From Turnera subulata (taxonomy: Eukaryota > Streptophyta > Magnoliopsida > Malpighiales > Passifloraceae), in the NCBI GenBank assembly GCA_028386065.3, contig JAKUCV010004467.1, positions 309,561 to 373,560 of the forward strand: a stretch of DNA of 64,000 bases, written 5' to 3'. Shown here in pieces: positions 28,641 to 59,821 of the stretch. The position numbers and the translations under genes were made by a program. Position 1 is the stretch's first letter. Each line of letters opens with the position of its first letter. The notes beneath the pieces were generated by a model that saw only the letters and a program-made list of their open reading frames with translations, was not told the origin of the DNA and did no database searches.

Positions 28641-31600
28641 TGTAACGCCCCAGATTTTATAATTTGATTTACGGAATTTCTGGAATTTTTATTCCAATGT
28701 TACCCTCGATGGATTTCGGAGTTTCTGGTTATGGAAAATAATTATTTTTCTTTGGAAATGTGAATTTCCAGTTGGGTTTTCTCAGGCTTCGGGTTTCAAT
28801 GATATCGGAACGTGTTTCGGGGTGAAACACGGGTCTTGTTAAGTCTTCGATCGAAACTACGTCGTTTTGAAGGAAAAAAAAACTTATAGAAGGGTCAACC
28901 TGACGTTGACCGAGCCAGGCCAAACGACAGGTCGTTCGGCCGGCTAGGTCAAGCCAGACACCCACCTTTCCTTCTTTCCTTCTTCTTCTTTTTTCTTTTT
29001 CTTTTCTCCTCCACTTTTCTTTTTCTTTCTGCCCGTTGCTCCCCCACTCAGTCGCTATTGCCCAACGGCTTTGTCTCCACGATCTCCCCTCAATCACACC
29101 CTCTCTTTTCTTCTTTTTCCCCTCACCCGAGCGCCGCTTCTCTCTTTTTTTCTTGTTTCCCTGTTTCTTTCTTTCATTCTTTTCTCCATAAACACCCTCA
29201 AACAGCCTTCGTCACCATCTTCTCTTCTTCCTTAATTACATACCGTCGCCTTCCCACTCTTCCTTTCTCTCCCCCCTTCGAGCCGCGCCCCTCTTCCGCC
29301 ATCTCTGCAGGCCTCAATCGGTGGAGGTCATACGACGAAGAACTCGAGGGCGCACTCGAGTCTGCTGTCACTGCCAATCACCATGGTGCGTGTCGCTGGT
29401 GCTAGGCGAGCCGATGAGTTTCGGTGGTGAGGACGGGTTGGTCGTGTTAGTTTTCATCGGTCTGTGTGCCTCTGTCAAGGCTCGGGGTTGAATCGAGCGG
29501 TCTCGCCGCCACCTATTCCGTGTCGCCGGATTTGGAGCTGTGGGTGCTGGTCGTGTTGAGCAGGGTTGCTGTTGGCTCGACCGGCTTGAAGGCTGCTGCT
29601 ATGGACAGTTTGGACGGTGTGTGTGCGTTTTCGGATAACTACCATTCACGGCCTTGAACTCGGCAGTGGACAAAACCGGCGTGAACAATACTCTCCGTTG
29701 AGCAATTTCTTCCCTTCTTCAATTCGTTTAGATGTTCTGTGATTGAATTAGTTGATGGATGATTGTTGTCTTGAGTTGGGGATTGAATGTGGGTTGTGGT
29801 TTTTCGGCATTGGCAGTTTGTTGAGGTTTCCGGCATCTCGGGTTACTGTTCCGACGAGGGTGACCGGAATCCGGCGAGCACGTACTGTTCCGGCGAGGGC
29901 TCGGGAATCTTCCGACGAAGGCTCGGGTTCTGCCCAGCGGACTATATTTCTCGTTTTTACGAGTGTTAGACGGTATTATTCTTGTTTTGTCTCGGTTATA
30001 CCATGTATTTAAATTTTGGAATTTATTTACCGAAATACATTTATATTTATATATTTAGTGAATTGCGGTTTACCGAGAGCGGAGAGTTAGAGTGTGTGGC
30101 CGGGAGAACTTACCGACACGTAGAGAATTTAGGCCGATTAACCTTGGGCTCGGGATGGCTTTAGGACGGTTTTTAGGAAAACCGAGCCCAGGCCCAATAA
30201 TCTCAATTTGAAGCTTAGAATGTTTTAAATGGACTTAAAGTTATGGACTTAGGACCTAATCACGGATAATTAAATTCACGAACATTAAGAACGGGCTCGA
30301 AGCCCAATTTCATAATTAGTAAATATGGACTTAAGGAAGTGGGCCTCAGCCCGGAATTTGTGATTAAGGATTTAGTGGGCTTTAGGCCCGAGAATTGTTA
30401 ATGGACTTAAACAGATGAACCTTAGATCTCTAATCGTTGGAGTTAAGGAAGTGAAAATACCCTTTTGGGCTTAGACCTGGAAATCTTATAATCAGATAGT
30501 TAAGGTCGGGAGTTACTCGATTGGAGCATACCTTAGCATGCATATACGTTTTTACTTCAAACATTGGTTTAGTGATTACATTGTGTACCGGTAATCAGGC
30601 ATGGGAGATACCTCGAGAGCTATAGACTCGGATCGGGAAGAAGTCATAATCTGCATTTTGAGGTGACATTACAAGTCTTTTTATATATGTTTTGTGAATG
30701 CATGTTGGTGTGGTTTGTTTGTTTACTTGCCTTGTTTGCTACATGCGATGATTGGAATTGTATACCTGATTGTTCTCACATGCCTAATTTCTATATGAAA
30801 AACTGCTTTGGTGATAGTGTGTGGTTATGGGCCGCAGGCCCGGATGAAACAGGGACACATACAATTCACACATCCCTGAAAGACATAATGTATCTCAACG
30901 GAAATGTAAAAACGTAATTAAGAATAAAATACTAAATTCTACTGTGTATCGGTTGGTAGCCCCGAGGGAGGGTTGGGTACCCTTGGGTCACTTTATGTTG
31001 TTTAGCATGGTATCCCAGGGGATGTAGGTGCACCCCTGGAAGACTTGCACCGGTTAGGTGTGTCTGAGTGCGCCCTCAGGTAGCTAGCGGCCACTCGAGA
31101 TTTATCAGTGGTTTTTGGCCTCAGAATCTACCCCTTCTAAGGTTCGACATTTGGGTTTCACACCCTGATCTGATCAGATGCGCTACCGACTCTTGACTCA
31201 CAGTAGAGGGCCCATAATGATAATAATAATTATAACAATTAAAATATCGCACTGAAACTAAATAATAGGAACAATAATACAGTAAGATGTTTATGTGTTG
31301 GTGTGTGATTCTGATTTGCTTGTATGATGTACTTGTGCTTGTGAACTACTCACCCTACGAGCATGACTTCACTTTCATGTATACTTAGACTTTTAATGTT
31401 CACTGAGTAGGCGACTCACATAATCGCCACCGTTGTTTTTCAGACTTTAGTTAGCGTGCTGTCTCACTTATACTATCGACTCGGAGTTCAGACGCAGACA
31501 CTTCATCAGGTAGTTGTGCATCTTCTCTTGGTTGGATCCATAGGGCCATATGCATGTTATTTTCTACTTTGATTTTTATTATTACTTTCATCTTCCGCTG

Positions 31601-31884
31601 CATGAGAAATAATTCGAGATGTCATAAATGTTTTATCTCCATATCGGCGGTTTGCCGGAGTTTGAATTTTGTGATATTATTTCGGTGTGATGCCGGGGTG
31701 GCTTACGACTTGATAAGCCGGTTAATTTCATTCACTTTTATGACATCCCGTTGTTAGTACATTTTACATGGAAAATGTTGTATGCTGAGGCATCGGTATT
31801 CGTATCCCGGGTTTCAAGAGTATTTTGGTAACTCTTTTTCATTTAAATATTTTATTTTATCAAATTGGGGTACGGGCTTCCACA
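28641..31884 (+). repeat. LTR 1 of insertion A
   Basis: Starts TGTAACGCCCC, ends GGGCTTCCACA. It contains a pyrimidine-rich tract (about 28965-29230) and GC-rich leader-like sequence. Recurrent 60-86-residue ORFs here occur identically in the other LTRs simply because the LTRs are copies. Confidence 0.88.
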
Positions 31885-31886
31885 GT

Positions 31887-31900
31887 TGGTAGCGGAGCGG
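31887..31900 (+). promoter_or_regulatory. Primer binding site, family A unit 1
   Basis: TGGTAGCGGAGCGG starts two bases after the LTR end. It differs from the common plant initiator-Met PBS (TGGTATCAGAGC) at several positions, yet the same word follows the LTRs of all families in this window. Confidence 0.75.
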
Positions 31901-32011
31901 GCTTCAGATCTTTGGGTTCTCAAAGTGATTTTTCCCTGTGCATAAGCCTGTTCCAGATTTATAATTTCTAAAAAACATTTTTCGTCTTGTTTGCATTCAT
32001 ATAGGCGTTAT

Positions 32012-32069
32012 TATGGATCCACCGCAAGACATGTATAATGCTGAAGGACAGGATGAATTGATGCCATAA
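32012..32069 (+). pseudogene. Gag start relic, family A unit 1
   Basis: ATG at 32012 opens a frame beginning MDPPQDMYN, comparable to the MDPVGG start of Tekay gag at 51943. It dissolves within about 19 codons into non-coding sequence. The rest of gag-pol is gone. A counterpart lies at 37686 in unit 2. Confidence 0.55.
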
Positions 32070-32190
32070 ATAAACGAAAATACAAATATTATTAATATTG
32101 CAAATACTGATATTACAAAGGGGGACACATTACATTGATTTTGATATTTTATATTTCATAAAAAGGGAAATATTACAACGATTTTGATAT

Positions 32191-32196
32191 TTTATT
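32191..32196 (-). terminator. Poly(A) signal of aORF2, unit 1
   Basis: AATAAA on the minus strand, about 17 nt after the aORF2 stop codon. The equivalent in unit 2 is 37864-37869. Confidence 0.5.
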
Positions 32197-32212
32197 AAAA
32201 TAGAAAATACAT

Positions 32213-32896
32213 TTAATGGTTCGGAACGACGTTGACACGGAAGCTGTTTGGATCGCTGTTGATGTTGACCGTGACTCTGTCGCTCCAAGTGAACCACATG
32301 CCGCCTCTGTCGCGCTGGCCAGGAATCTCGAACCGGTTTGCTGTAGGGAACCGGAGTGGGATCAGACCGTGATTGTCCCGTGGTTGCCACTGTGTCTCCG
32401 TTAGAAGAACCATATTCGGTTTGTACTGGTTCTTCAAGTCCCTCAGCGTATGTGAGAACTCTTGAGCGCGCCTTGCAACTCCTCTGCAGTTCCACACCAG
32501 CAGCCGTGCCTTTGGCCAAGTTGGAGGTAAGCGCGTCATTCTGGGCATGCTCTGGGCCGTCATCGAGAGCTGGTAGTAGGCACCTTGCTCCACAGTTTGG
32601 CAAGTAGACTCCAGGTTGAACTCCTGCAGCCTTTTCGAGATGAAGAACATCACGGAGTTTGCCGATCCGTTGTAGGATGTCCTCAGCGTTTCGTGATCCT
32701 CCAAGAAGAACACCTCTTCCATTGGAGTGACGAAGAACCGCAACGAGTAGAGCTCGTCGGCGAGGACTAGACGCGGCATTCTTCCGAGCTCGTTCGGTAG
32801 TTCCTCTGGGCGTTCGTTGACCATGCTGTAGGCCAGTCGGTTCCTTCTGCCAAGGTTGGCACCTTCGACGAAGAAAACTGATGATGGGGCAGGCAT
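32213..32896 (-). CDS. Antisense ORF aORF2 (LINE-endonuclease-like C-terminal half), unit 1
   Basis: Intact 227-residue ORF, antisense to its host retrotransposon. Residues 1-115 match no family I recognise. From ~130 on, the sequence resembles the start of the endonuclease (EEP) domain of plant LINEs: RLLVWNCRG at 131-139 (the Asn of EEP motif I), LRDLKNQYKPNMVLLTET (Glu167 in the metal-binding position) and a GGMWFTWSD segment at 198-206. The later catalytic Asp/His motifs are absent, so nuclease activity is unlikely. A candidate TATA box lies ~111 bp upstream and AATAAA just downstream. A 227-residue copy is in unit 2 and a broken relative in element C. Function unknown. Confidence 0.75.
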   Translation of the reverse strand: MPAPSSVFFVEGANLGRRNRLAYSMVNERPEELPNELGRMPRLVLADELYSLRFFVTPMEEVFFLEDHETLRTSYNGSANSVMFFISKRLQEFNLESTCQTVEQGAYYQLSMTAQSMPRMTRLPPTWPKARLLVWNCRGVARRAQEFSHTLRDLKNQYKPNMVLLTETQWQPRDNHGLIPLRFPTANRFEIPGQRDRGGMWFTWSDRVTVNINSDPNSFRVNVVPNH

Positions 32897-33000
32897 TGTG
32901 TTGGGCGTGTAGGTGTTTCGTTTTTCTAGAGTTTTGCGGTTTCTTTGTTTGGGCGTGTGGTTGCCTTAAAAAGCTTTTGATGACTTACTCCTCACCCTAC

Positions 33001-33014
33001 CGTCTTTTATAACC
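33001..33014 (-). promoter_or_regulatory. Candidate TATA box of aORF2, unit 1
   Basis: Minus-strand GGTTATAAAAGACG, about 111 bp before the ATG at 32896. The same position in unit 2 (38674-38687) and in element C (TATAAAAGAAACGG near 56750, ~113 bp before its ATG) keeps TATAAAAGA and the spacing. Confidence 0.6.
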
Positions 33015-33687
33015 TTAGGAGGAGCGTGTTTATTGCTTTCGAAGTTCAAGTTTTTGCTTTGAAATTTTACCGTTGCCTCATTTATTGCTTCGACACGCTA
33101 TGTGTTTGTTTTTCGGGCAACAAATGCCAGAGTTTGTCAGTCCTTTTCTACCTTACAATTTTCAATTTCCTGGGCTACTTCATTTTAGTCTCCTTAAGAC
33201 TTGTTCCTACATCCTTTGTCACAAGCACTCGTGACCGTTGTGGCTAGACCGTGGAGACCACACCTCGAGTAGAGTGCATGTGCGACAAGGTTACAACTGT
33301 TTGGACAGCGTGGAGAGATACGAGACTTGACCGACAATTTTGGCTCAAGCGGACTTTAGGGACAAGTGGGTAACATTTCTTTCGAGGAAACAGGATGTCC
33401 CGTGATCATCGCCTTGCGAGTTAACGGACGTCTTTTCCACGAGGGAAACCAACGTCACCGTTAGCTGTGTACGTTACGTTTCTCGGGATCGAGGATGTTT
33501 ACGATCGATCTAGAGCCCCGCACGGAGACGTGTTTTGTTTTAACTTCTCAATGTTTTGATGTTACTACCCGAGTGTTGTTTCGTTTATAATTCCTAATGT
33601 CTGATTTCATATCTTTATTGCTGGTTTTTAATCGGCTTAATACGAGATTTCGTAATAGAAGAGTTTTGATTTAAGAAGAAAACTTAT

Positions 33688-33693
33688 TTTATT
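33688..33693 (-). terminator. Poly(A) signal of aORF1, unit 1
   Basis: AATAAA on the minus strand, about 35 nt after the stop. It sits in a word conserved in unit 2 (39364-39369) and, on the plus strand, in element C (56085-56090). Confidence 0.55.
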
Positions 33694-33728
33694 GATTTCA
33701 TAACATTTTACAACAAAGAAGAAGCACT

Positions 33729-34124
33729 CTACGGAGTTACATGATTTTTCAGATCTTTTACAAGTTCTTGAATGTTCGCGTTCTGAGAAGAGAGTCCCAT
33801 ACAGGCCAGTTCAATCTGCATCACCACTGAGCTGACCTTCTTCAGTGAGGTGTCCAGCTGCTTTATTGTATGCAGTGGTGTGCTGCCCTCAGCTGTTGCC
33901 TTGCCTTTCCTATCTTTTGCATCCTTATTACCAGAAGGTCCTTCCTTGCTTACACGCTTCTTTAGCCGTCTTGGAGGAACCACCATATGCTCCTTCAGGC
34001 CGATGATGCTGGTCTTGAACCGCTTCTTAGGAGGTTCCTCATCGGAGCTTGTCGGGAAAGCCCTACTGATGTAACTGTTATCCTCTGAGTCAGAGGTAGT
34101 ACGGGATCTTAGTGGTGAGTCCAT
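33729..34124 (-). CDS. Antisense ORF aORF1 (short protein with NLS-like clusters), unit 1
   Basis: 131-residue ORF antisense to the retrotransposon, lying between aORF2 and the PPT. The N-terminus is rich in Ser, Asp and Glu. Two basic clusters resembling nuclear localisation signals follow: PPKKRFK (31-37) and PRRLKKR (51-57). The last ~45 residues look helical, with heptad-like Leu/Ile/Val spacing, and might mediate oligomerisation. No known family recognised. Minus-strand CTTATATCC and TATATAAACC words lie 35-70 bp upstream, and a conserved ATCAATAAAATAAG poly(A) signal follows the stop. Related ORFs are at 39405-39803 and 55671-56048, and their length differences are whole codons. The function is unknown; a nuclear accessory role is only a guess. 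Confidence 0.72.
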   Translation of the reverse strand: MDSPLRSRTTSDSEDNSYISRAFPTSSDEEPPKKRFKTSIIGLKEHMVVPPRRLKKRVSKEGPSGNKDAKDRKGKATAEGSTPLHTIKQLDTSLKKVSSVVMQIELACMGLSSQNANIQELVKDLKNHVTP

Positions 34125-34276
34125 AGTTGTGTGTGAGTTCTCAATTATTAGGTTCGGTTTATATAAGCGGAGGAGGAGTCGCTTAAGGATATAAGCGGTA
34201 TCTTGCGATGAGTTTGGACACCGGTAGAGGATACCAGAAACTTATCGTGGTAGGACCTATGGACTTGATAATTGAA

Positions 34277-34311
34277 TTTCGAGGACGAAATTTCCTTAAG
34301 TGGGGTAGAAC
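34277..34311 (+). promoter_or_regulatory. PPT region of insertion A, unit 1
   Basis: ATTTCGAGGACGAAATTTCC then TTAAGTGGGGTAGAAC immediately before the next LTR; closely similar in layout to the Tekay PPT region. Repeated before LTR 3 at 39990. Confidence 0.65.
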
Positions 34312-37300
34312 TGTAACGCCCCGGATTTTATAATTTGATTTACGGAATTTCCGGAATTTTTATTCCAATGTTACCCTCGATGGATTTCGGAGTTTCTGGT
34401 TATGGAAAATAATTATTTTTCTTTGGAAATGTCAATTTCCAGTTGGGTTTTCTCAGGCTTTGGGTTTCGTTGATATCAGAACGTGTTTCGGGGTGAAACA
34501 CGAGTCTTGTTGAGTCTTCGATCGAAACTACGTCGTTTTGAAGGAAAAAAAAAACTTATAGAAGGGTCAACCTGACGTTGACCGAGCCAGGCCAAACGAC
34601 AGGTCGTTCGGCCGGCTAGGTCAAGCCAGGCACCCACCTTTCCTTCTTTCCTTCTTCTTCTTTTTTCTTTTTCTTTTCTCCTCCACTTTTCTTTTTCTTT
34701 CTGCCCGTTGCTCCCCCATTCAGCCGCCATTGCCCAACGGCTTTGTCTCCACGATCTCCCCTCAATCACACCCTCTCTTTTCTTCTTTTTCCCCTCACCC
34801 GAGTGCCGCTTCTCTCTTTTCTTCTTGTTTCCCTGTTTCTTTCTTTCATTCTCTTCTCCATAAACACCCTCAAACAGCCTTCGTCACCATCTTCTCTTCT
34901 TCCTTAATTACATACCGTCGCCTTCCCACTCTTCCTTTTTCTCCCCCCCTTCGAGCCGCGCCCCTCTTCTGCCATCTCTGCAGGCTTCAATCGGTGGAGG
35001 TCATACGACGGAGAACTCGAGGGCGCACTCGAGTCTGCTGTCACTGCCAATCACCATGGTGCGTATCGCTGGTGCTAGGCGAGCCGGTGAGTTTCGGTGG
35101 TGAGGACGGGTTGGTCGTGTTGGTTTTCATCGGTCTGTGCGCCTGTGTCAAGGCTCGGGATTGAATCGAGCGGTCTCGCCGCCACCTATTCCGTGTCGCC
35201 GGATTTGGAGCTGTGAGTGCTGGTCGTGTTGAGCAGGGTTGCTGTTGACTCGACCGGCATGAAGGCTGCTGCTATGGACAGTTTGGACGGTGTGTGTGTG
35301 TGTTCGGATTACTACCATTCACGGCCTTGAACTCGGCAGTGGACAAAACCGGCGTGAACAATACTCTCCGGTGAGCAATTTCTTCCCTTCTTCAATTCGT
35401 TTAGACGTTCTGTGATTGAATTAGTTGATGGATGATTGTTGTCTTGAGTTGGGGATTGAATGTGGGTTGTGGTTTTTCGGCATTGGCAGTTTGTTGATGT
35501 TTCCGGCATCTCGGGTTATTGTTCCGACGAGGGTGACCGGAATCCGGCGAGCACGTACTGTTCCGGCGAGGGCTCGAGAATTTTCCGGCGAAGGCTCAGG
35601 TTCTGCCCAGCGGACTATATTTCTCGTTTTTATGAGTGTTAGACGGTATTATTCTTGTTTTGTCTCGGTTATACCATGTATTTAAATTTTGGAATTTATT
35701 TACCGAAATACATTTATATTTATATATTTAGTGAATTGCGGTTTACCGAGAGCGGAGAATTAGAGTGTGTGGCCGGGAGAACTTACCGACACGTAGAGAA
35801 TTTAGGCCGATTAACCTTGGGCTCGGGATGGCTTTAGGACGGTTTTTAGGAAAACCGAGCCCAGGCCCAATAATCTCAATTTGAAGCTTAGAATGTTTTA
35901 AATGGACTTAAAGTTATGGACTTAGGACCTAATCACGGATAATTAAATTCACAGACATTAAGAACGGGCTCGAAGCCCAATTTCATAATCAGTAAATATG
36001 GACTTAAGGAAGTGGGCCTCGGCCCGGAATTTGTGATTGAGGATTTAGTGGGCTTTAGGCCCGAGAATTGTTAATGGACTTAAACAGATGAACCTTAGAT
36101 CTCTAATCGTTAGAGTTAAGGAAGTGAAAATACCCTTTTGGGCTTAGACTTGGAAATCTTATAATCGGATAGTTAAGGTCGGGAGTTACTCGATTAGAGC
36201 ATACCTTAGCATGCATATACGTTTCTACTTCAAACATTGGTTTAGTGATTACATTGTGTACCGGTAATCAGGCACGGGAGATACCTCGAGAGCTGTAGAC
36301 TCGGATCGGGAAGAAGTCATAATCTGCATTTTGAGGTGACATTACAAGTCTTTTTATATATGTTTTGTGAATGCATGTTGGTGTGGTTTGTTTGTTTACT
36401 TGCCTTGTTTGCTACATGCGATGATTGGAATTGTATACCTGATTGTTCTCACATGCCTAATTTCTATATGAAAAACTGCTTTGGTGATAGTGTGTGGTTA
36501 TGGGCCGCAGGCCCGGATGAAACAGGGACACATACAATTCACACATCCCTGAAAGACATAATGTATCTCAACGGAAATGTAAAAACGTAATTAAGAATAA
36601 AATACTAAATTCTACTGTGTATCGGTTGGTAGCCCCGAGGGATGGTTGGGTACCCTCGGGTCACTTTATGCTGTTTAGCATGGTATCCCAAGGGATGTAG
36701 GTGCACCCCTGGAAGACTTGCACCGGTTAGGTGTGTCTGAGTGCACCCTCAGGTAGCTAGCGGCCACTCGAGATTTATCAGTGGTTTTTGGCCTCAGAAT
36801 CTACCCCTTCTAAGGTTCGACATTTGGGTTTCACACCTTGATCTGATCAGATGCGCTACCGAGACTTGACTCACAGTAGAGGGCCCATAATGTTAATAAT
36901 AATTATAACAATTAAAATATCGCACTGAAACTAAATAATAGGAACAATAATACAATAAGATGTTTATGTGTTGGTGTGTGATTCTGATTTGCTTGTATGT
37001 TGTACTTGTGCTCGTGAACTACTCACCCTACGAGCATGACTTTACTTTCATGTATACATAGACTTTTAATGTTCACTGAGTAGGCGACTCACATAATCGC
37101 CACCGTTGTTTTTCAGACTTTAGTTAGCGTGCTGTCTCACTTATACTATCGACTCGGAGTTCAGACGCAGACACTTCATCAGGTAGTTGTGCATCATCTC
37201 TTGGTTGGATCCATAGGGCCATATGCATGTTATTTTCTACTTTGATTTTTATTATTACTTTCTTCTTCCGCTGCATGAGAAATAATTCGAGATGTCATAA

Positions 37301-37557
37301 ATGTTTTATCTCCATATCGGCGGTTTGCCAGAGTTTGAATTTTGTGATATTATTTCGGCGTGATGCCGGGGTGGCTTACGACTTGATAAGCCGGTTAATT
37401 TCATTCACTTTTATGACATCCCGTTGTTAATACATTTTACATGGAAAATGTTGTATGCTGAGGCATCGGTATTCGTATCCCGGGTTTCAAGAGTATTTTG
37501 GTAACTCTTTTTCATTTAAATATTTTATTTTATCAAATTGGGGTACAGGCTTCCACA
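34312..37557 (+). repeat. LTR 2 of insertion A
   Basis: Near-identical to LTRs 1 and 3, with scattered substitutions only. It serves as 3' LTR of unit 1 and 5' LTR of unit 2. The PBS TGGTAGCGGAGC follows from 37560. Confidence 0.88.
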
Positions 37558-37885
37558 GTTGGTAGCGGAGCGGGCTTCAGATCTTTGGGTTCTCAAAGTG
37601 ATTTTTCCCTGTGCATAAGCCTGTTCCAGATTTATAATTTCTAAAAAACGTTTTTCGACTTGTTTGCATTCATATAGGCGTTATTATGGATCCACTGCAA
37701 GACATGTACAATGCTGAAGGACAGGATGAATTGAGGCCATAAATAAACGAAAATACAAATATTATTAATATTGCAAATACTGATATTACAAAGGGGGACA
37801 CATTACATTGATTTTGATATTTTATATTTCATAAAAAGGGAAATATTACAACGATTTTGATATTTTATTAAAATAGAAAATACAT

Positions 37886-38569
37886 TTAACGGTTCGGAAC
37901 GACGTTGACACGGAAGCTGTTTGGATCGCTGTTGATGTTGACCGTGACTCTGTCGCTCCAAGTGAACCACATGCCGCCTCTGTCGCGCTGGCCATGAATC
38001 TCGAACCGGTTTGCTGTAGCGAACCGGAGTGGGATCAGACCGTGATCGTCCCGTGGTTGCCACTGTGTCTCCGTCAGAAGAACCATATTCGGTTTGTACT
38101 GGTTCTTCAAGTCCCTCAGCGTACGTGAGAACTCTTGAGCGCGCCTTGCAACTCCTTTGCAGTTCCACACCAGCAGCCGTGCCTTTGGCCAAGTTGGAGG
38201 TAAGCGCGTCATTCTGGGCATGCTCTGGGCCGTCATCGAGAGCTGGTAGTAGGCACCTTGCTCCACAGTTTGGCAAGTGGACTCCAGGTTGAACTCCTGC
38301 AGCCTTTCCGAGATGAAGAACATCACGGAGTTTGCCGATCCGTAGTAGGATGTCCTCAGCGTTCCGTGATCCTCCAGGAAGAACACCTCTTCCATTGGAG
38401 TGACGAAGAACCGCGACGAGTAGAGCTCGTCGACGAGGACTAGACGCGGCATTCTTCCGAGCTCGTTCGGTAGTTCCTCTGGGCGTTCGTTGACCATGCT
38501 GTAGGCCAGTCGGTTCCTTCTGCAAAGGTTGGCATCTTCGACGAAGAAAACTGATGATGGGGCAGGCAT
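37886..38569 (-). CDS. Antisense ORF aORF2, unit 2
   Basis: 227-residue intact copy of the unit 1 protein, with about a dozen residue differences (for example Asp12 for Gly12 and Cys16 for Gly16). It keeps VWNCKGV at the endonuclease-like motif, TET at 166-168 and GGMW at 198-201. Arg138 of WNCRG has become Lys. A TATA candidate is at 38674-38687 and AATAAA at 37864-37869. Because the units arose by recent recombination, this copy adds little independent evidence of selection. Confidence 0.72.
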   Translation of the reverse strand: MPAPSSVFFVEDANLCRRNRLAYSMVNERPEELPNELGRMPRLVLVDELYSSRFFVTPMEEVFFLEDHGTLRTSYYGSANSVMFFISERLQEFNLESTCQTVEQGAYYQLSMTAQSMPRMTRLPPTWPKARLLVWNCKGVARRAQEFSRTLRDLKNQYKPNMVLLTETQWQPRDDHGLIPLRFATANRFEIHGQRDRGGMWFTWSDRVTVNINSDPNSFRVNVVPNR

Positions 38570-39404
38570 TGTGTTGGGCGTGTAGGTGTTTCGTTTTTCT
38601 AGAGTTTTGAGGTTTCTTTGTTTGGGTGTGTGGTTGCCTTAAAAAGCTTTTGATGACTTACTCCTCACCCTACCGTCTTTTATAACCTTAGGAGGAGCAT
38701 GTTTATTGCTTTCGAAGTTCAAGTTTTTGCTTTGAAATTTTACCGTTGCCTCATTTATTGCTTCGACACGCTATGTGTTTGTTTTTCGGGCAACAAATGC
38801 CAGAGTTTGTCAGTCCTTTTCTACCTTACAATTTTCAATTTCCTGGGCTACTTCATTTTAGTCTCCTTAAGACTTGTTCCTACATCCTTTGTCATATGCA
38901 CTCGTGACCGTTGTGGCTAGACCGTGGAGACCACACCTCGAGTAGAGTGCATGTGCGACAAGGTTACAGCTGTTCGGACAGCGTGGAGAGATACGAGACT
39001 TGACCGACATTTTTTGGCTCAAGCGGACTTTAGGGACAAGTGGGTAACGTTTCATTGGAGGAAACAGGATGTCCCGTGATCATCGCCTTGCGAGTTAACG
39101 GACGTCTTTTCCACGAGGGAAACCAACGTCACCATTAGCTGTGTGCGTTACGTTTCTCGGGATCGAGGATGTTTACGATCGATCTAGAGCCCCGAGCACG
39201 GAAACGTGTTTTGTTTTAACTTCTCAATGTTTTGATGTTACTACCTAAGTACTGTTTCGTTTATAATACCTAATGTCTGATTTCATATCTTTATTGCTGG
39301 TTTTTAATCGGCTTAATACGAGATTTCGTAATAGAAGAGTTTTGATTTTAGAAGAAAGCTTATTTTATTGATTTCATAACATTTTACAACAAAGGAGAAG
39401 CACT

Positions 39405-39803
39405 CTACGGAGTTACATGATTTTTCAGTTCTTTTACAAGTTCTTGAATGTTCGCGATCTGAGAAGAGAGTCCCATACAGGCCAGTTCAATCTGCATCAC
39501 CACTGAGCTGACCTTCTTCAGTGAGGTGTCCAGCTGCTTTATTGTATGCAGTGGTGTGCTGCCCTCAGCTGTTGCCTTGCCTTTCCTATCTTTTGCATCC
39601 TTGTTACCAGAAGGTCCTTCCTTGCTTACACGCTTCTTTCGCTGTCTTGGAGGAACCACCATATGCTCCTTCAGGCCGATGATGCTGGTCTTGAACCGCT
39701 TCTTAGGAGGTTCCTCATCGGAGCTTGTCGGGAAAGCCCTACCACCGATGTAACTGTTATCCTCTGAGTCAGAGGTAGTACGGGATCTTAGTGGTGAGTC
39801 CAT
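39405..39803 (-). CDS. Antisense ORF aORF1, unit 2
   Basis: 132 residues, one longer than unit 1 through a codon-sized difference near residue 20 (GG replacing S). Both basic clusters are kept (PPKKRFK and PRQRKKR), as is the C-terminal helix-forming region. Poly(A) signal at 39364-39369. Confidence 0.7.
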   Translation of the reverse strand: MDSPLRSRTTSDSEDNSYIGGRAFPTSSDEEPPKKRFKTSIIGLKEHMVVPPRQRKKRVSKEGPSGNKDAKDRKGKATAEGSTPLHTIKQLDTSLKKVSSVVMQIELACMGLSSQIANIQELVKELKNHVTP

Positions 39804-39990
39804 AGTTGTGTGTGAGTTCTCAATTATTAGGTTCGATTTATATAAGCGGAGGAGGAGTCGCTCAAGTATATAAGTGGTATCTTGCGATGAGTTTGGACAC
39901 CGTTAGAGGATACCAGAAACTTATCGTGGTAGGACCTACGGACTTGATAATTGAATTTCGAGGACGAAATTTCCTTAAGTGGGGTAGAAC

Positions 39991-42900
39991 TGTAACGCCC
40001 CGGATTTTATAATTTGATTTACGGAATTTCTGGAAATTTTATTCCAATGTTACCCACGATGGATTTCGGAGTTTCTGGTTATGGAAAATAATTATTTTTC
40101 TTTGGAAATGTCAATTTCCAGTTGGGCTTTCTCAGGGTTCGGGTTTCGTTGATATCGGAACGTGTTTCGGGGTGAAACACGGGTCTTGTTGAGTCTTCGA
40201 TCGAAACTACGTCGTTTTGAAGGAAAAAAAAACTTATAGAAGGGTCAACCTGACATTGACCGAGCCAGGCCAAACGACAGGTCATTCGGCCGGCTAGGTC
40301 AAGCCAGGCACCCACCTTTCCTTCTTTCCTTCTTCTTCTTTTTTCTTTTTCTTTTCTCCTCCATTTTTCTTGTTCTTTCTGCCCGTTGCTCCCCCACTCA
40401 ATCGCCATTGCCCAACGGCTTTGTCTTCACGATCTCCCCTCAATCACACCCTCTCTTTTCTTCTTTTTCCCCTCACCCGAGCGCCGCTTCTCTCTTTTCT
40501 TCTTGTTTCCCTGTTTCTTTCTTTCATTCTCTTCTCCATAAACACCCTCAAACAGCCTTCGTCACCATCTTCTCTTCTTCCTTAATTACATACCGTCGCC
40601 TTCCCACTCTTCCTTTCTCTCCCCCCCTTCGAGCCGCGCCCCTCTTCCGCCATCTCTGCAGGCTTCAATCGGTGGAGGTTATACGACGGAGAACTCGAGG
40701 GCGCACTCGAGTCTGCTGTCCCTGCCAATCACCATGGTGCGTGTCGCTGGTGCTAGGCGAGCCGATGAGTTTCGGTGGTGAGGACGGGTTGGTCGTGTTG
40801 GTTTTCATCGGTCTGTGCGCCTGTGTCAAGGCTCGGGGTTGAATCGAGCGGTCTCGCCGCCACCTATTCCGTGTCGCCGGATTTGGAGCTGTGGGTGCTG
40901 GTCGTGTTGAGCAGGGTTGCTGTTGGCTCGACCGGCTTGAAGGCTGCTGCTATGGACAGTTTGGACGGTGTGTGTGCGTGTTCGGATTACTACCATTCAC
41001 GGCCTTGAACTCGGCAGTGGACAAAACCGGCGTGAACAATACTCTCCGGTGAGCAATTTCTTCCCTTCTTCAATTCGTTTAGATGTTCTGTGATTGAATT
41101 AGTTGATGGATGATTGTTGTCTTGAGTTGGGGATTGAATGTGGGTTGTGGTTTTTCGGCATTGGCAGTTTGTTGAGGTTTCCGACATCTCGGGTTACTGT
41201 TCCGGCGAGGGTGACCGGAATCCGGCGAGCACGTACTGTTCCGGCGAGGGCTCGGGAATTTTCCGGCGAAGGCTCGGGTTCTGCCCAGCGGACTATATTT
41301 CTCGTTTTTACGAGTGTTAGACGGTATTATTCTTGTTTTGTCTCGGTTATACCATGTATTTAAATTTTGGAATTTATTTACCGAAATACATTTATATTTA
41401 TATATTTAGTAAATTGCGGTTTACCGAGAGTGGAGAGTTAGAGTGTGTGGCCGGGAGAACTTACCGACACGTAGAGAATTTAGGCCGATTAACCTTGGGC
41501 TCGGGATGGCTTTAGGACGGTTTTTAGGAAAACCGAGCCCAGGCCCAATAATCTCAATTTGAAGCTTAGAATGTTTTAAATGGACTTAAAGTTATGGACT
41601 TAGGACCTAATCACAGATAATTAAATTCACGGACATTAAGAACGGGCTCGAAGCCCAATTTCATAATCAGTAAATATGGACTTAAGGAAGTGGGCCTCAG
41701 CCCGGAATTTGTGATTAAGGATTTAGTGGGCTTTAGGCCCGAGAATTGTTAATGGACTTAAACAGATGAACCTTAGATCTCTAATCGTTAGAGTTAAGGA
41801 AGTGAAAATACCCTTTTGGGCTTAGACCTGGAAATCTTATAATCGGATAGTTAAGGTCGGGAGTTACTCGATTGGAGCATACCTTAGCATGCATATACGT
41901 TTTTACTTCAAACATTGGTTTAGTGATTACATTGTGTACCGGTAATCAGGCACGGGAGATACCTCGAGAGCTGTAGACTCGGATCGGGAAGAAGTCATAA
42001 TCTGCATTTTGAGGTGACATTACAAGTCTTTTTATATATGTTTTGTGAATGCATGTTGGTGTGGTTTGTTTGTTTACTTGCCTTGTTTGCTACATGCGAT
42101 GATTGGAATTGTATACCTGATTGTTCTCACATGCCTAATTTCTATATGAAAAACTGCTTTGGTGATAGTGTGTGGTTATGGGCCGCAGGCCCGGATGAAA
42201 CAGGGACACATACAATTCACACATCCCTGAAAGACATAATGTATCTCAACGGAAATGTAAAAACGTAATTAAGAATAAAATACTAAATTCTACTGTGTAT
42301 CGGTTGGTAGCCCCGAGGGATGGTTGGGTACCCTCGGGTCACTTTATGCTGTTTAGCATGGTATCCCAAGGGATGTAGGTGCACCCCTGGAAGACTTGCA
42401 CCGGTTAGGTGTGTCTGAGTGCACCCTCAGGTAGCTAGCGGCCACTCGAGATTTATCAGTGGTTTTTGGCCTCAGAATCTACCCCTTCTGAGGTTCGACA
42501 TTTGGGTTTCACACCCTGATCTGATCAGATGCGCTACCGAGACTTGACTCACAGTAGAGGGCCCATAATGATAAAAATAATAATTATAATAATTAAAATA
42601 TCGCATTAAATCTAAATAATAAGAACAATAATACAATAAGATGCTTATGTGTTGGTGTGTGATTCTGATTTGCTTGTATGCTGTACTTGTGCTCGTGAAC
42701 TACTCACCCTACGAGCATGACTTCACTTTCATGTATACTTAGACTTTTAATGTTCACTGAGTAGGCGACTCACATAATCGCCACCGTTGTTTTTCAGACT
42801 TTAGTTAGCGTGCTGTCTCACTTATACTATCGACTCGGAGTTCAGACGTAGACACTTCAGCAGGTAGTTGTGCATCATCTCTTGGTTGGATCCATAGGGC

Positions 42901-43238
42901 CATATGCATGTTATTTTGTACTTTAATTTTTATTATTACTTTCATCTTCCGCTGCATGAGAAATAATTCGAGATGTCATAAATGTTTTATCTCCATATCG
43001 GCAGTTTGCCGGAGTTTGAATTTTGTGATATTATTTCGGCGTGATGCCGGGGTGGCTTACGACTTGATAAGCCGGTTAATTTCATTCACTTTTATGACAT
43101 CCCGTTGTTAATACATTTTACATGGAAAATGTTGTATGCTGAGGCATCGGTATTCGTATTCCGGGTTTCAAGAGTATTTTGGTAACTCTTTTTCATTTAA
43201 ATATTTTATTTTATCAAATTGGGGTACGGGCTTCCACA
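39991..43238 (+). repeat. LTR 3 of insertion A
   Basis: Third near-identical LTR. The PBS after it reads TGGTTGCGGAGC, one base changed. Only ~42 bp of internal sequence follow before the junction with Tekay integrase at ~43280. Confidence 0.88.
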
Positions 43239-43280
43239 GTTGGTTGCGGAGCGGGCTTCAGATCTTTGGGTTCTCAAAGT

Positions 43281-46501: not shown

Positions 46502-46502
46502 A

Positions 46503-53478: not shown

Positions 53479-55485
53479 TGAAATGCCCCGACCCGTATTT
53501 ACCGTACACAGTAAACACGTGCCGGAACTGTGACGACTCAACCATACCAAGCCCAGCATACAGTGTACTCATCAGTAACTCGGGCTCAACAGCCCAAAAA
53601 TAATAACGTCAATACAACATCACCGGCCCAATGGCCCAACAATAGTAAAAACATGCACAGCGGAAGACTTAAATAACTCACACAAACACTGTATGCGACA
53701 TAGATGCAAATTATGGATCCAAGTCCTGTCCAAGGGATAACGCCGCAGCCTGTCTGGAATGCACCAAACCTGTACCAAAAGTAACTCATCCTACGGGATG
53801 AAAGCCCTCAGGTGAGGGGTGAGTCCGAAGTGCTCACTGACGAAGGAAAGACAATCAATATGCACACTAAAATTACTCAAGTCAAAAACAGGCTAAACAG
53901 CCCAACCAAAAGACAAGACCCAAAAGACTCAAATAAAACCAATTTCCAATTTTATCTTTCCGGGCTCCGTCACCGATAACTAGAGGTCAGACCTGGTTAT
54001 CAACACATTCCAGGTGCCAGACCAAATCCAGAGAACCCAGGGATCGACATCCCAAAAATACGAACCCAGGGATAGACATCCCAAAAATAATCACGGGATA
54101 GACATCCCAAGCATAGACATGCTTATCACAAGAACCCAGGTCATGGCCACTACGAAACAGTCTTAAACCATCGAGTCGTACCACTACCTATCACGTGACA
54201 ATTATATTACCGTCATTAAAATCAAATCACAGGGATCGACATCCCTAACCAAAATCCCGGGATAGACGTCCCATCCAAAATACCAAGGATCGACATCCTT
54301 GTCACAATTTATTACTTAATCCATTTTATTTAGTGCCAAAACGACTCAAGAATAAACGTCCAAAAACCGACATGGGATAATCATCCCGACCACAGTCAAG
54401 ACAATGGGATAAACATCCCGAAGCATAACATAGCAAATGCAGCATCCAACAGTGTAAAACCAACAAACACAACTACCGAGCAATATAGGCACATATTGAA
54501 GGAAATCCATCCTCACCTTGGCCGATTACTCAACTCCGGAAACAATGACCGGTCTGACGCCGGCTCCTAGGGAAACTGCCCGATATACAAACCCTCAAGA
54601 CCCGAACTCCACGGGTTTGGCGGACGGAGCAAGGTGGCGGGTCGAGCAGCAGGACGAACGGCGAGAGGAACGCGGCGTCGCGTGAGGAGGAACGGCTGCG
54701 GCTGACAACGGCGAGGGGAAAATCGAGGCGACGATCTCCAGGCGCGGTCGATGGACCTGCTGGTGAAGTCAACGCGAAGAGGAGACACGCAAGGCAACGA
54801 CGATGCATCCTCAGCGGCGGCACAACACGTGCAGGAGGACGGCGACACGATCCAGGGGCGATAAGCAAGCGTTGGGGGAAAAGTCGTGCGGCGAGTAGGC
54901 AGCGGCTACTCGTCGTCGGGTTGCCGGCGGCACTCCTCTCCCCCTCTTCTCTTTTTTTCTTTTCTACTTTCCCTCCTTTCTTTTTCTTTCTTTCATTTCT
55001 TTTTTTTTTCCTCTCCTTTTTTTCTTCTCCTCCTCTTTCTTTTCTCCCTTTTTTTTCTTTTTCTTCCCTCTTTTTTTTTTTCTCTTTTCCTCTCTTTTTT
55101 CTCTTCTTTCTTTTCTCTTTTCTTTCCTCTTCTCTTCCTCTTCACCGGCTTTAAACTGTGTTTTTTACTTTTACTATTCAATATGTGAACTCCAATAATA
55201 CAAATCGTCTGTATTACGGGGCGAGTCCGGTCCGGACCAGAAAATAAGTGATACCCCCTTAGTTATTTCCCGGTGTGATTTTCCGAGAAATTTCGAAACC
55301 CGAAAAATACCAACTTAGGCCCGAAAAATCCACGGAAAAATCACGAGCGCGGGAAAACTCCTGGTTTCGAAAAACAACTCCCGATTTACCTTGAATTAAT
55401 TACCCAAGATTAATTCAACAGTAAATCACGGTAAAAGACTTTTACAGTCCCGGTAAAAATCAAAAATTTTACCCGGGCTGTTACA
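53479..55485 (-). repeat. 3' LTR of insertion C
   Basis: TGAAATGCCCC to GGGCTGTTACA. It contains a ~200-bp polypyrimidine tract (54945-55145) and repeated short GGGATCGACATCCC-like words (54000-54420). Confidence 0.9.
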
Positions 55486-55670
55486 GTCTACCCACCCTAA
55501 AAAGAATTTCGTCCCCGAAATTCCGTCTTATCAGTGGGTCCTACCATGATAAGCTTCTGGCACACTCTGTCAGGTGTCCAAACTCAACCCGAGATACCGC
55601 TTATACCCTTAAGCGACATCTCGTCCTCTACAAGAACCAAACCTCATGACTGGCATACTCACACACAGTC

Positions 55671-56048
55671 ATGGACTCTCCACTGAGATCAAGAACTACC
55701 TCAGACTCCGAGAACAACAGCTACATCGGTGGCACTGCCTTCCCGACAAGCTCTGATGAAGAACCTCCGAAGAAGCGCTTCAAGACGAACATCGTCGGCC
55801 TGAAGGAACACATGGTGGTCTCTCGAAGACGCCGGAAGAAGCGTGCTCCCAAAGAAGCTGAGGATCGAAAAGGCAAAGCGATGGCTGAAAGCAGCACACC
55901 GCAGCAGACTCTGACGCAGCTGAACGTCTCACTGAAGAAGATCAGCTCGGCGGTGGCGCATATCGAACTGGCGTGCGCGGAACTCTTCCCTCACATGAAG
56001 AACGTCCAAAAACTTGTAAAAGACTTAGCGAAGCATGTAACTCAATAG
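55671..56048 (+). CDS. Antisense ORF aORF1, element C
   Basis: 125-residue open frame, homologous to aORF1 of insertion A. The first ~48 residues are almost the same, including PPKKRFK, followed by an RRRRKKR cluster. There is a five-residue gap where family A has GPSGNKD, then a diverged but similar helical C-terminus. All length differences are whole codons. Upstream, CTTATACCCTTAAGCGAC (55600-55617 region) matches a word ahead of the family A copies. An AATAAA signal at 56085-56090 follows the stop in a conserved context. Function unknown; nuclear location is suggested by the basic clusters only. Confidence 0.72.
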   Translation: MDSPLRSRTTSDSENNSYIGGTAFPTSSDEEPPKKRFKTNIVGLKEHMVVSRRRRKKRAPKEAEDRKGKAMAESSTPQQTLTQLNVSLKKISSAVAHIELACAELFPHMKNVQKLVKDLAKHVTQ

Positions 56049-56084
56049 AGTACTTCTTCTCCGTTGTAAAACTATTATAAAATC

Positions 56085-56090
56085 AATAAA
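56085..56090 (+). terminator. Poly(A) signal of aORF1, element C
   Basis: AATAAA about 37 nt after the stop, inside ATCAATAAAATAAGTTTTC, which is shared with both family A copies. Confidence 0.55.
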
Positions 56091-56746
56091 ATAAGTTTTC
56101 TTTTAAAATCAAAACTCTTGTTAAGTTATGAAAACCCTTGCTAACAGAAAGTTTAAAACATTTCAAAGCAAAACAAAATTAACAATATGAATATAAAATC
56201 AAATATAAATAAATTAAAAACTAAATCTCGTTCAACAAAACCAAAATATAAAGAAGTTAAAACAAAAATATATTTCATGATCGGTGCTCGTATCGGACGT
56301 AAACACCCTCGAACCCAAGAAACGTGACATACGGAGCTAACGGTGACGATCTCGAGAGCGTCCTGTGTCCCACGAAAGGAACGTTATCCACTTGTCTGCA
56401 AATTTCGCATGAGCCAAAAACGTCCATCAAGTCTCGCATCTCTCCACGGTGTCCAAACAGCTGTGACCTCATCGCACATGCACTCTACTCGGGGTATGGT
56501 CCCATCCATCTAGCCCCAACGGTCATAAATGCATGTGATAAAAGATGCAAGAAAGTATAGTCAAACCATAAAAAGAAAAGACAAGGTAGCCAGAGTGAAA
56601 GAAAATCATAAGATGGAAAAAGGCTGAAAAACTCTGGCATAGTAGCCCGAAAAACGTATAAAGTAACAAAGCAATAAATGAAAGCAACGACAAATTTTCA
56701 AAGAGCAGAATCTTGAAAATCGAAAACAGTAAACACTCTCCCATAA

Positions 56747-56758
56747 GAGTATAAAAGA
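56747..56758 (+). promoter_or_regulatory. Candidate TATA box of aORF2, element C
   Basis: GTATAAAAGAAA about 113 bp before the ATG at 56866; same word and nearly the same spacing as in family A. Confidence 0.6.
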
Positions 56759-56865
56759 AACGGAGCGGTGAGGTGTAAATCATCAAAAGCATTTTAAGGC
56801 AAACAAACGCTTAGAAGAACAAAACCACAACGCTCAAAAACAAAATACCCACTCGTCCAAACACG

Positions 56866-57549
56866 ATGCCTGCTCCATCTTCCGTTTTCTTCGTCGAAGG
56901 TGCCAACCTAGGCAGAAGGAATCGTCTGGCCTACAGCATGGTCAACGAGCGTCCAGAAGAACTACCGAACGAGCTTGGCAGGATGCCGCGTCTGGTCTTC
57001 GTCAACGAACTTTACTCATCGCGATTGTTCATCACTCCCATGGAAGAGACGTTCTTCCTGGAGGATCATGGCACTCTGAGGACCTCTTACTACGGCTCGG
57101 CAAAATCCATCATGTTCTTCATCTCCGAAAGGCTTTAGGAGTTCAACCTAGAGTCCACTTGCCACTTCCTGGAGCAAGGTACCTACTACCAGCTCTCGAT
57201 GGCGGCCCAGAGCATGCCCAGAGTCACTCGTCTGCCCGTAACTTGGCCAAAGGCCCGACTTCTGGTGTGGAACTGTAGAGGAGTCGCAAGGCGTTCCTAG
57301 GAGTTCTCGCGTACTCTGAGGGACCTGAAGAACCAATACAAACCAAACATGGTTCTTCTCACAGAGACCCAGTGGCAGCCTCAAGACGATCACGGTCTCA
57401 TCCCACTCCGGTTCCCTCAAGCAAACCGGTTCGAGCTTCCAAGCCAGGACAACAGGGGCGGCATGTGGTTCTCGTGGAGCGACAGCATCCAAGTCAACAT
57501 CAACAACGACCCCACTAGCTTCAGGGTCAATGTCGTTCCGAGAAGATAA
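56866..57549 (+). pseudogene. Antisense ORF aORF2, element C, two premature stops
   Basis: 228-codon frame collinear with aORF2 of insertion A but interrupted by TAG at 57136-57138 and at 57298-57300. Both stops fall where family A has a glutamine codon. The first 44 residues are identical to unit 1 of family A despite 13 nucleotide differences, all synonymous. The endonuclease-like half keeps VWNCRG, LLTET and GGMWFSWSD. The gene was evidently under protein-level constraint before this copy decayed. Confidence 0.75.
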
Positions 57550-57699
57550 ATGTATTTTTATTTTTTATAAAATATCATGTAATATTTCTGTTTGTAACCA
57601 AAATATTAGTATTATCAATAATATTTATATTTCCGCTTATTTATGGCATCATTACCTCTTATGTGTATGTTCCGCGACAGATGGTGTCCCTTGACTGGA

Positions 57700-57818
57700 T
57701 CCATAATGCACTAACTAAATGATATAAAATAATAAAGAACTGGAGCGAACTATGCAAACAAGACAACAAACACACAAAGATTGCCCAACAAGACCTAACG
57801 CCCGCTCCGCTACCAAAA
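57700..57818 (-). promoter_or_regulatory. Leader, gag-start relic and PBS of element C
   Basis: The minus strand has the PBS TTGGTAGCGGAGCGGG (57800-57815) next to the 5' LTR. Further on, at about 57700, an ATGGATCCAGT start would read MDPVKGHH, resembling Tekay gag MDPVGG, and it ends without any gag domain. Confidence 0.6.
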
Positions 57819-59821
57819 TGAAACGCCCCGACCCATATTTACCGTACACAGTAAACACGTGCCGGAACTGTGACGACTCAACCATACCAAGCCCAGCATA
57901 CAGTGTATTCATCAGTAACTCGGGCTCAACAGCCCAAAAATAATAACGTCAATAACAACATCATCGGCCCAATGGCCAAACAATTGTAAAAACATGCACA
58001 ACGGAAGACTTAAATAACTCACACAAACACTGTATGCGACATAGATGCAAACTATAGATCCAAGTCCTGTCCAAGGGATAACGCCGCAGCCTGTCTGGAA
58101 TGCACCAAACCTGTACCAAAAGTAACTCATCCTACGGGATGAAAGCCCGCAGGTGAGGGGTGAGTCCGAAGTGCTCACCGACGAAGGAAAGACAATCAAT
58201 ATGCACACTAAAATTACTCAAGTCAAAAACAGGCTAAACAACCCAACCAAAAGACAAGACCCAAAAGACTCAAATAAAACCAATTTCCAATTTTATCTTT
58301 CCGGGCCCCGTCACCGATAACTAGAGGTCAGACCTGGTTATCAACACATTCCGGGTGCCAGACCAAATCCAGAGAACCCAGGGATCGACATCCCAAAAAT
58401 ACGAACCCAGGGATAGACATTCCAAAAATAATCACGGGATAGACATCCCAAGCATAGACATGCTTATCACAAGAACCCAGGTCAAGGCCACTACGAAATA
58501 GTCTTAAACCATCGAGTCGTACCACTACCTATCACGTGACAATTATATTACCGTCATTAAAATCAAATCACAGGGATCGACATCCCTAACCAAAATCCCG
58601 GGATAGACGTCCCATCCAAAATACCAAGGATCGACATCCTTGTCACAATTTATTACTTAATCCATTTTATTTAGTGCCAAAACGACTCAAGAATAAACAT
58701 CCAAAAGCCGACATGGGATAATCATCCCGACCACAATCAAGACAATGGGATAAACATCCCGAAGCATAACATAGCAAATGCAGCATCCAACAGTGTAAAA
58801 CCAACAAACACAACTACCGAGCAATATAGGCACATATTGAAGGAAATCCATCCTCACCTTGGCCGATTACTTAACTCCGGAAACAATGACCGGTCCGACG
58901 CCGGCTCCTCGGGAAACTGCCCGATATCCAAACCCTCAAGACCCGGACTACACGGGTTCGGCGGACGGAGCAAGGTGGCGGGGCGAGCAGCAGGACGAAC
59001 GGCGAGAGGAACGCAGTGTCGCGTGAGTAGGAACGGCTGCGGCTGACAACGGCGAGGGGAAAATCGAGGCGACGATCTCCAGGCGGCGGTCGATGGACCT
59101 GCTGGTGAAGTCGACGCGAAGAGGAGACACGCAAGGCGACGACGATGCATCCTTAGCGGCGGCACAACACGTGCAGGAGGACGGCGACACGATCCAGTGG
59201 CGACAAGCAAACGTTGGGGGAAAAGTCGTGCGGCGAGTAGGCAGCGGCTACTTGTCTTCGGGTTGCCGGCAGCACTCCTCTCCCCCTCTTCTCTTTTTTT
59301 TCTTTTCTACTTTCCCTCCTTTCTTTTTCTTTCTTTCATTTCTTTTTTTTTTCATCTCCTTTTTTTCATCTCCTCCTCTTTCTTTTCTCTCTTTTTTTCT
59401 TTTTCTTCCCTCTTTTTTTCCTCTTTTCCTCTCTTTTTTCTCTTCTTTCTTTTCTCTTTTCTTTCCTCTTCTCTTCCTCTTCACCGGCTTTAAACTGTGT
59501 TTTTTTTTACTATTCAACATGTGAACTCCAATAATACAAATCGTTTGCATTACGGAGCGAGTCCGGTCCGGACCAGAAAATAACTGATACCCCCATAGTT
59601 ATTTTCCGGTGTGATTTTCCGAGAAATTTCGAAACCCGAAAAATACCAACTTAGGCCCAAAAAATCCACAGAAAAATTATGAGCACGGGAAAACTCTCGG
59701 TTTCGAAAGACGACTCCCGATTTACCTTGAATTAATTACCCAAGATTAATTTAACAGTAAATCACAGTAAAAGACTTTTACAGTCCCGGTAAAAATAAAA
59801 AATTTTACCCGGGCTGTTACA
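57819..59821 (-). repeat. 5' LTR of insertion C
   Basis: TGAAACGCCCC to GGGCTGTTACA. Few differences from the 3' LTR. The polypyrimidine tract is at 59280-59480. Confidence 0.9.

Follow-up and report, generated by a model that had tools for sequence, protein, structure and literature searches.

The window analysed here, a 64,000-nt stretch of the Turnera subulata genome, holds nested plant long terminal repeat (LTR) elements, and two families among them, which we call A and C, both lie inside a Ty3/gypsy host element. Their internal regions carry two open reading frames (ORFs), aORF1 and aORF2, that run antisense to the element, and we conclude that both are real genes under purifying selection. 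The strand of each element is fixed by a primer-binding site (PBS)-like motif, TTGGTAGCGGAGCGGGC, beside the 5' LTR and a polypurine tract (PPT) beside the 3' LTR, which put family A on the plus strand and family C on the minus strand; because the placement of these motifs sets the element strand, all aORFs in the window are antisense in both families. The order of aORF1 and aORF2 is identical in both A units and in C. An earlier reading of the sequence alone (the sequence-only reading) had proposed two families with two antisense ORFs in the same order, and PBS/PPT strand and coordinates bear this out (Table 1).

The locus and its relatives across the genome

The sequence-only reading spoke of two family A units. 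Both internal units are present, but they belong to one tandem array, which is no clean single insertion: on the plus strand at 28641-43282 the order is LTR, internal region, LTR, internal region, LTR and a further 44 nt, and the two internal regions and three LTRs show near-equal divergence. At the right junction of this array part of the host integrase frame is apparently gone, as judged by eye. The family C element (53479-59821) is bordered by a 5-bp duplication, GTCGG, and its copy of aORF2 is broken. PBS and PPT motifs are common to A, C and the host, with small differences in the host PBS. In the host itself, gag, protease, reverse transcriptase (RT), RNase H and integrase domains were identified, and the last domain, which we take to be a chromodomain by its motif only, runs straight into the PPT. 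The module was not found in the host, which agrees with the earlier description of a Tekay-type element without such ORFs that ends at its PPT.

A search of the T. subulata genome (518.7 Mb) with the family A aORF2 gave 4126 first-look candidates, the best 40 of which were scored: two are the window copies, and the other 38 were taken as pieces of 8-10 kb (20 loci) or 2.2 kb (18 loci). Among these 38 best matches aORF1 lies upstream of aORF2, in the same order, in 31 (16/20 longer and 15/18 shorter pieces), 16 of which were seen within LTR elements; in L046 aORF1 is readable in part only, and the remaining seven matches are hAT-like DNA transposons. All 16 longer paired loci have the ORFs in antisense orientation, as given by a PBS or PPT motif at its expected site, and L009, L011 and L021 additionally show one PBS/PPT motif on the opposite strand elsewhere. 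The 15 shorter paired loci were fetched as pieces without LTRs, and a PPT motif is present in six of them. Within what was examined, the matches thus do not lie mostly outside LTR elements, the longer loci are not in sense orientation, and family C is a second family with both ORFs, three points on which the sequence-only reading could have failed.

The further statement that the module stands in place of gag-pol was partly right. Pol is absent, but seven of the 16 longer family A loci, each ~1.4 kb larger, carry a sense gag without pol, to which the aORFs are antisense. This gag was assigned by Pfam as Retrotrans_gag in the two loci tested (E 2.4e-12 and 2.9e-13) and by alignment in the others; it is open in two of the seven, and its ratio of nonsynonymous to synonymous polymorphism (pN/pS) is 0.29. 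Eight of the 16 lack gag, and the remaining one (L027) is a rearranged junction. Throughout, the aORFs sit between gag or the PBS and the 3' LTR.

Many copies are still readable. Neither premature stops nor frameshifts occur in aORF2 at 22 of the 31 paired loci (one copy minus its ATG, one minus its stop) and at all seven hAT-like loci, and the same is true of aORF1 in 21 of 30 readable copies. A corresponding genome search with the family C aORF2 gave 40 scored best matches at 93-100%, one being the window copy; of the 39 outside the window three were checked, and all three have aORF1 at the expected site, two of them frameshifted.

Table 1. Positions of the antisense ORFs in the window and of the elements that carry or enclose them
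Feature	Position	Strand	Remarks
aORF2, unit 1, 227 aa	32213..32896	-	antisense; residues 132-218 match LINE endonuclease N-terminus
aORF1, unit 1, 131 aa	33729..34124	-	antisense; basic clusters, coiled-coil-like C-terminus (by eye; sub-threshold Pfam coiled-coil hits)
aORF2, unit 2, 227 aa	37886..38569	-	94% aa to unit 1
aORF1, unit 2, 132 aa	39405..39803	-	96% aa to unit 1
aORF1, family C, 125 aa, intact	55671..56048	+	68% aa to A (tblastn)
aORF2 frame, family C	56866..57549	+	84% aa to A (tblastn), no indel; nonsense codons at residues 91 and 145
Family A LTR 1	28641..31884	+	97.7-97.8% to LTRs 2 and 3; TGTAAC...CCACA
PBS-like motif, unit 1	31885..31902	+	TTGGTAGCGGAGCGGGC; adjoins LTR 1; found unchanged in unit 2 and C, with a similar host version
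Family A internal region, unit 1	31885..34311	+	without gag, without pol
PPT region, unit 1	34274..34311	+	conserved with unit 2, C and host
Family A LTR 2	34312..37557	+	
Family A internal region, unit 2	37558..39990	+	97.5% to unit 1
Family A LTR 3	39991..43238	+	followed by 44 nt of internal start, 43239-43282
Family C 3' LTR	53479..55485	-	96.4% to other C LTR; target-site duplication (TSD) GTCGG
Family C internal region	55486..57818	-	75% DNA identity to A internal over 2.2 kb
Family C 5' LTR	57819..59821	-	
Host Ty3/gypsy gag	51098-51943	-	
Host Ty3/gypsy protease and RT start	49862-51070	-	
Host Ty3/gypsy RT-RNase H-integrase	43498-45045	-	

Selection on the ORFs and the origin of aORF2

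Between families A and C, aORF2 aligns over 684 nt with no indel, while intergenic segments have 1-9 gap openings. By codon position, aORF2 has 30/15/70 substitutions over 228 sites per position and aORF1 has 21/19/48 over 125, and the ratio of nonsynonymous to synonymous substitution rates (dN/dS) is 0.17 for aORF2 (95% bootstrap interval 0.10-0.25) and 0.21 for aORF1 (0.11-0.37). Within family A, pooled pN/pS is 0.17 for aORF2 (14 copies) and 0.38 for aORF1 (15 copies), drawn from a set of 18 copies per ORF (the window units and the 16 longer loci) that excludes copies of other length. When variants were counted over 24 of the 33 A-type copies, the nine of other length being excluded, those in at least two copies comprised 98 synonymous and 30 nonsynonymous changes, and those in a single copy 72 and 104, stops counted. 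Old variants have therefore been filtered and young ones less so, which fits decaying insertions descended from selected active lineages. Purifying selection on both ORFs means that their proteins work or worked.

Functionless open frames in G+C-rich repeats could arise by chance, and a second frame overlapping aORF2 is indeed open for 284 codons. That frame was rejected as a gene, its dN/dS being 2.4-2.9 against 0.16-0.17 for aORF2, and since aORF2 is conserved in a second family and at 31 further paired loci we give chance or artefact practically no weight. The possibility that antisense RNA and not protein is what matters, through double-stranded RNA or occlusion of sense transcription, is raised for antisense ORFs in PMC7264820; here it is very unlikely, because the codon-position pattern and the indel-free aORF2 require selection at the protein level. 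Assignment to the non-coding large retrotransposon derivatives (LARDs) was likewise dropped because the internal region holds two selected ORFs, and a single spliced gene made of both was rejected, since a conserved stop and AATAAA close aORF1, and aORF2 begins with an ATG and TATA of its own.

The second part of aORF2 points to a plant long interspersed nuclear element (LINE). Residues 132-218 align to residues ~3-87 of LINE ORF2, with 25-35% identity over ~80-96 residues. A control search with the LINE in the window (17942-20503) returned 1517 relatives, and the named sources among the 120 listed were all plants. From the endonuclease N-termini of 28 of these 120, those with a recognisable start, a profile was made that scored 46.0 and 45.0 bits with A copies of aORF2 and 30.8 with the C piece, against at most 9.9 in 20,000 shuffles; the Pfam model Exo_endo_phos gave 14.8 bits, below cut-off. 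The window LINE itself has RT and zf-RVT, and no upstream endonuclease part was seen in it. Two residues of aORF2 that we take to be metal-site catalytic residues of the LINE endonuclease, N136 (Asn) and E167 (Glu), are kept in 35 and 37, respectively, of 39 ungapped copies. However, aORF2 holds only the first ~87 residues of the endonuclease domain, and because the later part is absent nuclease activity is unlikely. On these alignments aORF2 is a composite, in which 131 N-terminal residues with no relative found are followed by the N-terminus of a plant LINE endonuclease.

A whole antisense LINE might have left both ORFs as a relic, with aORF1 as its ORF1 and aORF2 as the start of its ORF2. 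The homology begins at residue 3 of LINE ORF2, and LINEs have a coiled-coil-like ORF followed by the endonuclease, an order that the ORFs in the window resemble. Yet 131 unrelated residues stand ahead of the endonuclease part, the ORFs are ~0.8 kb apart, with TATA-like and AATAAA motifs in between, and aORF1 has no LINE ORF1 domain in Pfam or NCBIfam. In addition, the start of ORF2 alone is present, and it is the 5' end that LINE insertions usually lack. We therefore consider a LINE relic decidedly unlikely.

Whole-database protein searches raised 77 candidates for aORF2 and 10 for aORF1 but no match, although the same database yielded the 1517 LINE relatives; such searches depend on 5-residue words in common, and transposable elements (TEs) are often masked in plant gene sets. 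The viral contigs searched gave no match either, and searches of PDB sequences gave nothing informative. This is weak evidence that the aORF family may be narrow. It also bears on the idea that one or more plant genes were captured, the elements being mere carriers of a codon conservation inherited from them. Each ORF does resemble a compact gene with promoter-like and 3' motifs, and for the N-terminal 131 residues of aORF2 no known relative was found. Against this stand the low dN/dS within family A and between A and C, the missing protein match in a database rich in LINE relatives, and the fact that no lone gene occurs among the best 40 of 4126 matches (two in the window, 31 paired, seven hAT-like), nor was one seen in the three of 39 C matches that were viewed. 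Capture of a host gene thus seems unlikely to us.

Exchange of the module between elements

The internal regions of A and C are homologous along their whole length, at 61-84% identity by segment, whereas blastn with 7-base words found no match between their LTRs at E 1e-3. Between A and host LTRs the only common stretch is one of 30-38 nt. A solo LTR at 21603-24981 is related to the C and host LTRs, and the C LTR matches both it and the host LTR in pieces, at about 70-96%. With interiors homologous and LTRs unrelated, either new LTRs were acquired or the module changed elements; LTRs and module do not travel together and were swapped between families. The sequence-only reading had the module kept or exchanged while everything else diverged. 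The second part of this holds for the LTRs but fails for the internal noncoding DNA, which is homologous too. One locus, L049, is a mosaic: its first 1.6 kb, including aORF1, is mostly nearer to C (of its eight 200-nt windows, two favour neither family), and its aORF2 is nearer to A.

A possible source of pol is indicated by L027, where ORFs reading by eye as protease, RT, RNase H and integrase, with DNA 72-76% identical to host pol, run to a chromodomain-like end. There follow a PPT and ~105 bp from the start of an A-type LTR, to which the 3' flank of an aORF2 copy is joined. This one locus is probably a rearranged nest. Still, it demonstrates the existence of pol-bearing elements with A-type LTR ends, in which the pol end adjoins the PPT.

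The seven hAT-like matches extend the exchange to another class of TE. L023-L026 are elements of 2.0-3.1 kb with short inverted ends and perfect 8-bp TSDs in 4/4; their common core is 99.3-99.9% alike while the outer flanks differ, and L034-L036 match the core at 99.9-100%. Cores so alike indicate recent activity. In each of L023-L026 aORF2 is intact, and there is also a divergent ORF of 95 aa that looks like a coiled coil by eye and finishes with a basic cluster. No hAT transposase gene was found in them, the ATG-initiated ORFs of at least 60 aa being these two (and one of 73 aa in L026), and they are non-autonomous. The block shared with family A runs from ~230 nt before the aORF2 ATG to ~150 nt past its stop and is 90% identical to A and 81% to C. 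The hAT aORF2 differs by 2.0% from the LTR copy L028, compared with a mean of 7.3% among 24 A copies and 15.8% between C and A. It thus nests within family A, so the gene moved from an A element to the hAT-like element; this nesting and the 8-bp TSDs show that aORF2 with its flanks was captured from a family A copy. An origin of the module in hAT was rejected, as the hAT aORF2 is nested inside family A and the hAT-like elements lack aORF1.

This capture would suit an anti-silencing role, in which aORF1, aORF2 or both bind noncoding DNA of the element and relieve its methylation, much as VANC does: such a function could serve any TE class, unlike one in packaging or reverse transcription. Furthermore, the hAT copy contains an imperfect repeat of the segment that precedes aORF2, and VANC targets are often tandem repeats, according to PMC5735166. 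But gene capture by a DNA transposon requires no function, and the hAT copies are too alike to reveal selection of their own (two private sites, both synonymous, in the four of seven copies used). The repeat comparison also gave two weak hits in 20 shuffled controls, and Tandem Repeats Finder reported no array for that repeat. We rate anti-silencing in this specific form as rather unlikely. A broader proposal, possible if doubtful, is that a LINE-endonuclease-derived nuclear factor forms a self-contained cassette of promoter, ORF and 3' signal, which would have circulated among two LTR families and then hAT as an accessory or anti-silencing gene for any TE. If that were true, the success of a TE would depend on shared cargo and not on replication genes alone.

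Other features of the window are side observations. Ty1/copia-type elements with related LTRs lie at 45068-49884 and 60545-64000, with gag-like ORFs at 46558-47922 and 61965-63734, and the first of them is an insertion within host pol. A lectin receptor-like kinase gene, intact and of 688 aa, is found at 11324-13390.

A proposed nuclear accessory role and comparison with known systems

Our preferred reading, to which we give a probability of roughly two in three, is that the antisense genes are nuclear accessory genes of chromodomain-type Ty3/gypsy relatives that borrow pol. Families A and C would be non-autonomous relatives of chromodomain-type Ty3/gypsy elements that retain the cis signals (LTRs, PBS and PPT) and in some copies gag, while pol, and often gag, would presumably come in trans from elements whose LTR ends match. 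The two antisense genes would occupy the position expected of pol, each with its own TATA-like and polyadenylation-like motifs. By eye, aORF1 appears to be a small protein with basic clusters resembling nuclear localization signals (NLSs) and a coiled-coil-like C-terminus, and the aORF proteins may act in the nucleus. The likeliest role would be a nuclear accessory one, for instance as a regulator that binds DNA or chromatin and makes its own encoding copy more strongly expressed or less readily silenced; such a benefit is to be expected because a pol-less element would otherwise not retain the genes.

The motifs are widespread among the paired loci. TATAAAA occurs upstream of aORF2 in 31/31 and TATA upstream of aORF1 in 29/31; AATAAA lies at most 65 nt past aORF1 in 31/31 and follows aORF2 in 12/16. 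A bacterial promoter scan was set aside as inapplicable to plants.

Several points weigh against the preferred reading. The TATA and AATAAA motifs have a chance rate of ~4-10% per site, the copies share descent and hence are not independent, and two of the four motifs are missing in C (the TATA of aORF1, and AATAAA in exact form behind aORF2), so that the motifs support separate transcription units and do not prove them. The survey covers best matches (40 of 4126) and is no random sample; since copies were recruited through aORF2, copies without the module would be missed. Of the copies found, 9/31 aORF2 and 9/30 readable aORF1 are broken. Between units 1 and 2, dN/dS is 1.35 (0.48-5.5) and 1.53 (0.28-2.8), with wide intervals, and the noncoding A-C identity almost equals that of aORF1, which leaves room for an inflated dS, CpG decay being one conceivable cause. 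The nuclear role is drawn from NLS-like clusters judged by eye. Finally, an AlphaFold model of aORF2 made with LINE rows gave a mean pLDDT of 42 in the C-terminal half (21 residues at 70 or more), and its best PDB fold matches were LINE-1 endonucleases (best E 1.8e-3); the control made without LINE rows had a mean pLDDT of 29 and no confident region, and the fold match is therefore not independent evidence.

Three results go beyond the sequence-only reading, namely the LINE endonuclease fragment, the hAT capture (7/38) and the presence of TATA-like and AATAAA motifs at the ORFs. According to PMC7264820 and PMC11963269, the antisense ORFs of plant LTR elements were not known to resemble other TEs; one antisense ORF now has a demonstrable TE source, a LINE endonuclease. 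Moreover, aORF2 is under clear purifying selection in elements that depend on others for replication, and it has entered a DNA transposon, a move which suggests a function not bound to retrotransposition itself.

That antisense ORFs occur in other plant Ty3/gypsy elements, as the sequence-only reading stated, is corroborated by the same two papers. Those of maize Grande (gene23), rice RIRE2, Silene Retand and PvRetro13 are described there as likewise antisense, near the 3' LTR, conserved among copies and suspected of a nuclear role, and the Grande ORF is reported to have its own promoter. Retand belongs to a non-chromovirus lineage, mostly with pol, in which 97% of clusters encode a TRP28 domain (PMC11963269). 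TRP28 (PF04195) matched neither aORF1 nor aORF2 at E <= 1, and families A and C also differ from Retand/Grande-type elements in having no pol and, in one ORF, a LINE endonuclease fragment. In the titles and abstract openings listed, a search with most subscription papers outside it, including a 2011 survey of extra ORFs, we found no report of an antisense pair in a pol-less chromovirus-type element. Nor did the same material report a LINE endonuclease fragment in an antisense ORF, but with subscription papers mostly outside it priority is not established.

Three further systems offer comparisons. TR-GAG elements, according to PMC8704663, have LTRs and gag without pol, as do seven of the 16 longer loci; they are described there with gag as a single ORF, whereas the present elements have two antisense genes in addition, and gag is missing altogether from both window units and eight of the 16 loci. 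VANC of the VANDAL DNA transposons, from another TE class, is an accessory protein encoded by a TE and offers a possible functional analogue only (PMC5735166). In bdelloid rotifers, whose LTR elements have shared ORF3 types, PMC5408684 reports the same accessory ORFs in unrelated classes of element. There the sharing is among retroelements; here an LTR element and a hAT-like DNA transposon have the ORF in common, and the ORF itself contains LINE sequence.

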